Part shown: in pieces, positions 4,495 through 6,200 of the stretch
Layout of the letters: each line of letters begins with the position of its first letter
How positions within the stretch are numbered: the stretch's first letter is position 1
Source: Longibacter salinarum
GTDB taxonomy: Bacteria > Bacteroidota > Rhodothermia > Rhodothermales > Salinibacteraceae
Reading direction: 5' to 3'
NCBI RefSeq assembly: GCF_002554795.1
Contig: NZ_PDEQ01000007.1
Coordinates: 62,001-126,000, forward strand
Length of the DNA: 64,000 nt
The notes under the pieces: generated by a model
The model's input: only the letters and a program-made list of their open reading frames with translations
The model's database searches: none
What the model was told of the DNA's origin: nothing
Made by a program: the position numbers and the translations under genes

Positions 4495-4809
4495 TCAACC
4501 CTTTCCAGAAAGCCGATCTTTCAGCAAGGGAACGTCATTCTGGACAACTTCCAGATCTATGTTGAGGTAATCATGAGCGAGACGGTTACGCATTCCGATA
4601 ACAGCACGCCACGGTACCTCACTTACACGTCTACGAAAAGACTCCGATAGCTGACGGCTTGCCTCTCCAATGATTTCGATCTGCCGAACCGTCGCATCCT
4701 GGAGCATCCGATTCTCTTCAAAGGTTTGCCGGTCCACACCGCGAGTGTACTCTTCAATCTGGTGGATTGCGTCCATGATGTGCTCCACATACACTCGATC
4801 TGTCTTCAT
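4495..4809 (-). CDS. hepT: HepT-like ribonuclease toxin (DUF86)
   Basis: HEPN-domain RNase, the toxin partner of a MntA-type nucleotidyltransferase in type VII toxin-antitoxin systems. Seen: an all-helical sequence of about 104 residues with the catalytic motif Rx4HxY as RNRLAHDY, and the typical start MKTDRVYVEHIMDAI. A start three codons upstream (4818) is possible; the internal ATG at 4809 matches the family better. It overlaps the end of the nucleotidyltransferase gene by about 56 bp, so the two are translationally linked. In known systems the partner adds AMP to the tyrosine of this motif and neutralises it. The pair lies between two identical terminators, which suggests insertion. Confidence 0.88.
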   Translation of the reverse strand: MKTDRVYVEHIMDAIHQIEEYTRGVDRQTFEENRMLQDATVRQIEIIGEASRQLSESFRRRVSEVPWRAVIGMRNRLAHDYLNIDLEVVQNDVPLLKDRLSGKG

Positions 4810-5110
4810 AGAGCACAACCCGATCTTTTTCTAGATATGGGCGGATGTGGGGGCTGACAGAGCGTTCGGTCACGAGCTCCACGCGAGCTCCGAGCGTCTC
4901 CGATAATTCTTGCTCAAGTTCGAACCACTTCAACCCGAGAGCGGGGCGCTCCGACGCGGGACGCAAATCGACAAGTACATCGACATCACTGTTCGCATCG
5001 TGCTCCTCCCGGGCGACGGACCCGTACAGCGAAATGCGGGACGCAAAGGGACGAAGCGCCGGGACGACCACCTCTCGTACACGGTCAATGGTCAGCGTCG
5101 GAGGCGACAT
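4754..5110 (-). CDS. mntA: MntA-like minimal nucleotidyltransferase antitoxin
   Basis: Minimal nucleotidyltransferase expected to AMPylate and silence HepT. Seen: the NT-fold motif GSx10DxD as GSVAREEHDANSDVD, with the third acidic strand likely in RVELVTE. The start is taken at the ATG at 5110 (MSPPTLTIDRVREVV), which fits family length; the longer frame upstream to 5191 has no family resemblance. This gives 118 residues. The last 16 residues (SSVCGAHHGRNPPD region) lie in the part overlapping hepT and look unconserved. Upstream lies the second copy of the terminator and then tRNA-Cys. Whether the pair is active cannot be told from sequence. Confidence 0.88.
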   Translation of the reverse strand: MSPPTLTIDRVREVVVPALRPFASRISLYGSVAREEHDANSDVDVLVDLRPASERPALGLKWFELEQELSETLGARVELVTERSVSPHIRPYLEKDRVVLYEDRSSVCGAHHGRNPPD

Positions 5111-5198
5111 GAGAAATTGTAAACGAGCTTGAAGCGACAGTCCGAGGGTGAAGCCGTTCGTTGCAACACACTCAATATACGTGTACGCCACCCAAACG

Positions 5199-5235: not shown

Positions 5236-5256
5236 TTCGTTATTGCCGTAAGTCTG

Positions 5257-5327
5257 AGGTGACGGGCGGATTCGAACCGCCGTACGAGGCTTTGCAGGCC
5301 TCTGCCTAACCCCTCGGCCACGTCACC
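5257..5327 (-). tRNA. tRNA-Cys (anticodon GCA)
   Basis: The minus strand folds as a complete tRNA: acceptor arms GGTGACG/CGTCACC, a D arm, anticodon loop with GCA flanked by CT and AA, and T loop GGTTCGAATCC. The discriminator base is T (U73), an identity element of tRNA-Cys. The CCA end is not encoded (TCA follows), so it must be added after transcription. Confidence 0.95.
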
Positions 5328-5492: not shown

Positions 5493-6200
5493 TTACACCC
5501 ATCCCTTCTCCTTCGCCTCCCGGTAGCCTTTCGCGCGAAGCTTAGACGCCGGGTTGTCGAGTTGTCCGTAGCCCCACTCGTGGAGTTCGGAGCGATCGCC
5601 GTTGTAATCCGTGTGGCTCATCACGCGGACGGTCTCCAGTACATCGCATCCCGCGACCGTCACAAGGTCTGCCGCAAGCTTCCACGTCTCCGCCTTCGTG
5701 AGGTACATCAGCGGCGTGTGGATGCGCAGGTCTTCATCCATGGCCAGCGATAGGCTCGTCTGCATCGAGTCGATGAAGACGCGGCGGCAGTCCGGGTAGC
5801 CGCTGTAGTCCGTCTGGCACATCCCGCCGACAAGGTCATGGATGCCGCGGTTGTACGCGTAGCTCGCGGCCGTGCTGAGAAAGAGCGCATTGCGCCCCGG
5901 GACGAAGCTCGCGGGCAGGTCCTCATTCCGCTCGTGCGCGGCGCTCATGTCCTTCTCGTGCTCCGTCAGCGCCGAGCCGGAGAGCGTGCCCTCCATGTCG
6001 ATGATCTCAAACGGGACATCCGCCTTTACCGCAATCTTGCGCGCCTGCTCCGTCTCGACCGCGTGCTTCTGCCCGTAGTGAAACCCGAGCGCGTGGACCG
6101 ACGCGAATCGGTCGAGCGCCCAGAACAGGCACGTCGTAGAGTCCTGCCCGCCGGAAAAGAGCACGAGCGCGGAGCGGTCGGTGGAATCGGGGTGCGGCAT
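5493..6200 (-). CDS. queC: QueC-type 7-cyano-7-deazaguanine synthase lacking the zinc cysteines
   Basis: QueC converts carboxydeazaguanine to preQ0 with ATP and ammonia, for queuosine in tRNA. Seen: PP-loop SGGQDSTTCL near residues 16-25, FVPGRNALFL, the family block GGMCQTDYSGYPDCRR and the KAETWKLAADL helix. The C-terminal segment normally carries four zinc-binding cysteines in a pattern like HTCY...GYGCGxCPACxLRAKG. Here the same segment reads SHTDYNGD and GYGQLDNPASKLRAKGY, so all four cysteines are replaced (D, Q, N, S) while flanking residues match. The 235 aa length is normal. Minus-strand neighbours are the OmpA-type gene upstream and tRNA-Cys downstream; no other queuosine genes are in the window. 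Function without zinc is uncertain. Confidence 0.85.
   Translation of the reverse strand: MPHPDSTDRSALVLFSGGQDSTTCLFWALDRFASVHALGFHYGQKHAVETEQARKIAVKADVPFEIIDMEGTLSGSALTEHEKDMSAAHERNEDLPASFVPGRNALFLSTAASYAYNRGIHDLVGGMCQTDYSGYPDCRRVFIDSMQTSLSLAMDEDLRIHTPLMYLTKAETWKLAADLVTVAGCDVLETVRVMSHTDYNGDRSELHEWGYGQLDNPASKLRAKGYREAKEKGWV

Follow-up and report, generated by a model that had tools for sequence, protein, structure and literature searches.

Can a QueC whose entire zinc site has been replaced still make preQ0, and what would then hold the loop that is otherwise fixed by the metal? This question is raised by a 64,000-nucleotide stretch of the Longibacter salinarum genome (hereafter, the window), in which the minus strand at 5493-6200 encodes a 235-residue homologue of the preQ0 synthase QueC. 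The open reading frame scored 214.8 bits with the Pfam profile PF06508 (cut-off 22) and 205.6 with TIGR00364, the NCBIfam equivalog of QueC (cut-off 150.3), and among solved structures its nearest sequence matches are two QueCs, 3bl5 and 2pg3. It is the sole PF06508 match in the genome (G000; 4.4 Mb, 99.76% complete); thus, a second, canonical queC, which a preliminary description of this DNA had named as the finding that would speak against its proposal, was not detected there. Near queC, a HepT-like protein and an MNT-type nucleotidyltransferase are encoded as a pair at 4495-5191 (minus strand), between dnaB and a tRNA-Cys gene (5256-5327).

The preliminary description held that the expected cysteines of the C-terminal segment had become D, Q, N and S, and the alignment agrees. 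The former zinc-binding segment (residues ~195-235 and the stop codon; 5493-5620, minus strand) contains SHTDYNGD at residues 195-202 and GYGQLDNPASKLRAKGY at residues 210-226. The nearest relatives with four cysteines (Cys4) read HTCYLGER..WGYGCGECPAC.LRAKGW and the window QueC reads HTDYNGDR..WGYGQLDNPAS.LRAKGY; since the flanking residues match, the ligand columns can be aligned unambiguously. The first to fourth zinc cysteines are replaced by D198 (5607-5609), Q213 (5562-5564), N216 (5553-5555) and S219 (5544-5546), respectively, all on the minus strand, and the zinc-binding motif of canonical QueC, C(x)8CxxCxxC, is absent. This Cys4 motif is treated as a hallmark of QueC in the available part of PMC13329287, and we therefore classed the protein as a zinc-free variant and not as a canonical zinc QueC.

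To see how regular the replacement is, we compared the columns of 97 dereplicated QueCs, 54 zinc-less and 43 Cys4. All four ligand columns hold Cys in 43/43 sequences of the Cys4 group. In the zinc-less group the first is D, the third N and the fourth S or T, each in 54/54 sequences, whereas the second is free (K, R, V, Q, N and others), with K or R in 25/54. Consequently, the replacement described earlier as precise is so at three positions; that of Q213 is variable. The zinc-less sequences also have a conserved C-terminus of their own, A229..G233-W234, the glycine being present in 52/54 and the tryptophan in 53/54 (GW, 5499-5504, minus strand). A search of the 54 zinc-less sequences for a replacement zinc site revealed no newly conserved cysteine, and H161 was the only newly conserved histidine.

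In contrast to the zinc ligands, the catalytic residues are intact. In the available text of PMC13329287 (July 2026), the signature of canonical QueC (cluster 1) consists of SGGxDS, YxQxHxxE, VPxRN, YPDC, L75, K165, Y189 and C(x)8CxxCxxC, and as far as that text goes the window QueC retains every one of these motifs except the last. They are found, all on the minus strand, as the PP-loop SGGQDS (residues 16-21; 6138-6155), YGQKHAVE (42-49; 6054-6077), VPGRN (100-104; 5889-5903), YPDC (135-138; 5787-5798), L78, taken from the alignment as the equivalent of L75, K169, corresponding to K165 of E. coli QueC (5694-5696), and Y199, corresponding to the essential E. coli Y189 and lying inside the former zinc loop (5604-5606). 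S16, G17, G18, D20, S21, Y42, Q44, E49, R103, N104, Y135, P136, D137, C138, K169 and Y199 are identical in 97/97 sequences, zinc-less and Cys4 alike. Alanine mutants at Y35, R99, Y131 and Y189 of the E. coli enzyme were tested in the same study, and the essential residues that mutagenesis defines in its available part are all retained here. That part also states, with references, that QueC needs both ATP and zinc to function; it contains no word starting with "Rhodotherm" or "Bacteroid" and gives no account of a canonical-cluster member that lacks the zinc site. Nor did full-text searches of open-access PMC papers list a description of a zinc-less QueC. Judging by its sequence, the window protein is most likely a zinc-free variant that works like QueC, and the enzyme may be able to do without the zinc motif that is supposedly its hallmark.

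An AlphaFold2 model was built from 55 aligned sequences, with locus L076 omitted from the alignment. It has a pLDDT of 94.3 (94-98 over residues 191-235) and a pTM of 0.91; one viral QueC modelled without an alignment gave a pLDDT of 38.7 and was set aside. VIA-align matched the window model to 3bl5 (Z 25.5, rmsd 2.5, 192 aligned residues) and 2pg3 (Z 23.5, rmsd 2.5, 198 aligned), with the Cap9 structure 9nto ranking below both (Z 21.4, rmsd 2.1, 178 aligned). The modelled helix 217-231 begins just past N216. From these data a mechanism may be proposed: in ordinary QueC, Zn(Cys)4 would staple the loop carrying the essential tyrosine to the point where the C-terminal helix begins; in zinc-less QueC, N216 could cap this helix, with P217 adjoining and S/T219 as a partner, and D198 could bond to the helix cap or, where residue 213 is K, R or Q, to that residue. 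The longer helix with its terminal GW would contribute packing, and the four cysteines would give way to a metal-free knot of hydrogen bonds or salt bridges. The proposal derives from three features: D, N and S/T do not vary, the residue at the second ligand column does, and the helix starts after N216. To us the chances appear evenly balanced that a helix-cap hydrogen-bond knot with D198, and not a hard-cation site or some other arrangement, replaces the Cys4-zinc staple in holding the essential-tyrosine loop.

The same three residues could instead bind a hard cation in place of zinc, Mg2+, Ca2+ or Na+ being coordinated through the oxygens of D198, N216 and S/T219. All three conserved substitutes do supply oxygen ligands, and salts may be plentiful: the nearest named relative among the matches listed is the metagenome-assembled genome (MAG) GSL.Bin3, a name that presumably refers to the Great Salt Lake. 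However, the lysine or arginine so often found at the free position would be unfavourable near a cation, and capping is the simpler account of N and S/T at the start of the modelled helix; we thus consider a bound cation unlikely and prefer the metal-free knot.

We then turned to the genomic context of queC. Profile and homology searches of the Longibacter salinarum genome detected TGT, QueF over its cut-off, QueA and QueG, as well as three genes of the PTPS/QueD family. A QueE-like radical SAM protein adjoins QueF; the profile scores of QueE hits are weak, none being over the cut-off, and its assignment relies on these scores together with adjacency. The queC gene is located apart from this queE-queF pair. 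The preliminary description had proposed looking for queD, queE, queF and tgt, and all were encountered, queD as family members and queE as the QueE-like gene, with queA and queG in addition. Across the order, where 114 genomes were searched with the window protein (E <= 1e-10), 35 contained a relative, a single one per genome. QueF over the cut-off was present in 33 of these 35 genomes and in 0 of the 79 without QueC (Fisher p ~1e-26, with relatedness ignored). QueC was situated within 3 kb of QueF in 23/35, of a QueE hit in 21/35, and of either in 29/35, and genes of the queD family, queA and queG were present in 14/14 of the QueC-containing genomes searched for them. The two QueC genomes lacking QueF over the cut-off are G403 (83% complete) and G435 (98% complete); in the latter, QueC lies beside QueE and a TGT match is absent as well. 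The genus g2 includes members with and without QueC, and G435 looks as if it is losing the pathway. TGT was detected in 93/114 genomes of the order but QueC in only 35/114; many members therefore probably salvage a queuosine precursor.

According to the available text of PMC6884629, QueF reduces the nitrile preQ0, and the tracking of zinc-less QueC by QueF therefore favours preQ0 as the product. On the strength of this association, the sequence and the model we consider it probable that the window protein is a working, zinc-free QueC that would convert 7-carboxy-7-deazaguanine to preQ0 in two ATP-dependent steps and feed QueF and TGT for tRNA queuosine. The zinc-independent preQ0 synthesis proposed in the preliminary description thus gains genomic and structural support from the single QueC, its association with QueF and the retained catalytic residues; that this QueC produces preQ0, binds no zinc and holds its loop in the manner outlined above is what we infer from them.

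Zinc-less QueCs also occur in viruses. In a scan of IMG/VR, the best 80 of 260 relatives, all on uncultured viral contigs, were zinc-less (80/80); the subfamily is seemingly common in uncultured viruses, although figures drawn from the best 80 of 260 do not yield a prevalence. Within the same 80 loci, QueE was hit in 76-77, FolE in 77 and QueD in 71-75, depending on the query, a TGT/DpdA-like protein in 71 and QueF in 12; terminase large-subunit and small-subunit clusters were present at 39 loci each, and the genes of representative cassettes were confirmed against Pfam and PHROGs. Zinc-ligand patterns of the accompanying viral enzymes were mixed and carry no weight here: CEHH of FolE was found in 77/77, a second FolE cysteine pattern in 32, and the QueD pattern in 44/71. 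In one viral FolE (L156:2120-2998, plus strand), an N-terminal phosphoribosyltransferase-like part is fused to the enzyme. Two tblastn searches of cultured phages matched 307 and 257 records, and the ten QueCs read among the best hits were all Cys4. These QueCs, from Queuovirinae, Cellulophaga phage phi38:2 and others, are encoded in similar cassettes, where QueC is accompanied by QueD, QueE, FolE or TGT-like genes; unlike zinc-less QueCs, they keep the cysteines. The matches listed are 42-51% identical to the queries. Earlier work on phage deazaguanines reports that most phage QueCs cluster apart from bacterial ones, and the word "zinc" is absent from the main text of that paper as available (PMC6884629). 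Viral queC is described as abundant in Baltic sediment viromes in the available part of PMC9301287.

The scarcity of QueF in these cassettes bears on the nature of the product. Most of the viral loci, again among the best 80 of 260, have no detectable QueF, and phages with an amide base in their DNA do exist (PMC8306585, available part), as would be expected if zinc-less QueC made the amide 7-amido-7-deazaguanine, or another deazaguanine, and not preQ0. The bacterial gene, however, tracks the nitrile-reducing QueF, and the residues linked to preQ0 formation are all retained; a product other than preQ0 therefore appears improbable for the window enzyme. For the same reason, namely that QueF acts on the nitrile, the related ATP-dependent amidation that the preliminary description had offered as its second option is less likely than preQ0 synthesis.

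Within bacteria, the best 80 loci of a scan of genome_contigs comprised 71 Cys4 and 9 zinc-less QueCs, a selection of best matches that likewise yields no prevalence. Four of the nine (L071, L072, L074 and L078) are apparently the genomes G427, G219, G415 and G420, which the count for the order already includes. The remaining five are labelled as a Planctomycetaceae MAG (L073), Adhaeribacter aerolatus (L075), a Myxococcota MAG (L076), a Poribacteria MAG (L077) and Rhodothermaeota MED-G19 (L079), although MAG taxon labels may be wrong; in L079, queF follows directly downstream of the zinc-less queC. A diagnostic DNA pattern matched 15 of 394 genomes of the phylum, 14 from the order and one, G275, from outside it. 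The zinc-less queC of G275 (contig C17; L352:4814-5506, plus strand) is surrounded by queD-, queE-, folE- and TGT-like genes and one for ParB; terminase and portal genes come next, and by this gene content it is situated in a prophage; another PF06508 match (242 bits) is present elsewhere in that genome.

Relatives of QueC that modify proteins were considered too. The zinc-less QueCs share the fold, length, catalytic motifs and pathway neighbours of the canonical zinc enzyme (cluster 1 of PF06508, with the structures 3BL5 from B. subtilis and 2PG3 from E. carotovora), and differ in the loss of the four zinc cysteines, the D, N and S/T at the ligand positions and the A..GW C-terminus. Cap9 of type IV CBASS (9NTO) shares the fold and, according to the available text of PMC13329287, retains the catalytic motifs of QueC in variant form; it is ~185 residues long, is 19% identical to the window QueC, carries CE(x)6CxxCxxCxD and has a CD-NTase partner. 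QatC is described there as a protein of ~400 residues with N- and C-terminal extensions and the motif C(x)19CGxCxxRR, whereas the window QueC, at 235 residues, has neither extensions nor motif. LarE and GMP synthase, PF06508 relatives and PP-loop ATP pyrophosphatases, also lack the QueC zinc motif, but in them the QueC catalytic motifs are missing or replaced and the chemistry is different (PMC13329287, available part). A Cap9- or QatC-like deazaguanylation of proteins in a defence locus might be suspected from the NTP_transf_2 protein encoded at 4754-5191 (minus strand) beside the HepT-like protein, just beyond the neighbouring tRNA gene. Yet this pair is of the HepT/MNT type: no CD-NTase partner (PF18144) was found among the ORFs near queC, and the nucleotidyltransferase matches PF01909/PF18765. 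The usual neighbours of queC in the order are queF and queE, the window QueC has the zinc motif of neither Cap9 nor QatC, and its identity to the solved QueCs is 39-46%, well above that to Cap9, so that such a function is very improbable.

Finally, although G435, with a QueC but neither a TGT match nor QueF over the cut-off, is what a pathway in decay could look like, we dismiss decay or chance retention of an inactive QueC, because all 35 relatives in the order (35/35) are zinc-less in the same manner and the dN/dS values of the window QueC against five of its relatives (0.087, 0.182, 0.102, 0.109 and 0.159, i.e. 0.09-0.18) indicate purifying selection, while the same replacement recurs across many families and in phages with the catalytic columns intact. 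Zinc-less QueC is a conserved subfamily, and the earlier argument against random decay is upheld.

Loss of zinc ligands in the order is not confined to QueC. The TGT of Longibacter salinarum (L242:1282-2316, minus strand, equal to G000 C6 104802-105878) reads LENPVS at the position of the zinc site, where other bacteria presumably have the motif Cys-x-Cys-x2-Cys. The three zinc-site cysteines are absent from all 40 TGTs of the order that were read (L242, L250-L289, L336), whether or not the genome has QueC, and the histidine that follows the cysteine motif is changed to glutamine in nearly all of them, L285 retaining it. Elsewhere in the phylum, CxCxxC is kept in 3 of the 22 other TGTs readable with the pattern, 29 of the 91 TGT loci being unreadable; zinc-less TGT thus seems widespread in the phylum. 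The resemblance of NPVS in this TGT to NPAS in QueC was considered as one and the same replacement and dropped: in 39 further TGTs of the order the loss of cysteines is conserved and NPVS is not.

To trace the origin of the subfamily, we calculated a tree with the zinc segment excluded (97 rows, from 234 sequences after dereplication). The best tree requires at least three state changes for the zinc-less group, and monophyly of that group was not rejected (AU p 0.216); a single origin and several origins would both fit this tree. A transfer of zinc-less QueC from phages to bacteria is an attractive possibility. In a joint reading, which we put forward tentatively and hold to be less probable than its negation, zinc-free QueC would have arisen in phage cassettes for preQ0 DNA modification and been captured by Rhodothermia-type bacteria as their sole QueC, with D...N-P-A-S/T as an encoded, metal-free substitute for the Cys4 staple. 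Because the TGTs of the order have also lost zinc-site residues, this reading further supposes that the later steps of queuosine synthesis, those of QueC, QueF and TGT, run without structural zinc.

If zinc-less QueC works as proposed, zinc in QueC would be a replaceable scaffold, and the protein would provide a natural example of the loss of a structural zinc. Motif-based annotation of QueC would need correcting, and a robust preQ0 synthase for oxidising or zinc-poor conditions would be at hand. Whether phages were the source of a bacterial tRNA-modification enzyme becomes a testable question.

A different setting for the gene was observed in Adhaeribacter aerolatus, a named strain, where zinc-less queC is accompanied at L075:2429-8658 by queD, an HNH nuclease, DUF6884, a NurA-domain protein and a HerA-like ATPase. 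This island is possibly devoted to DNA modification or defence rather than being a queuosine operon.
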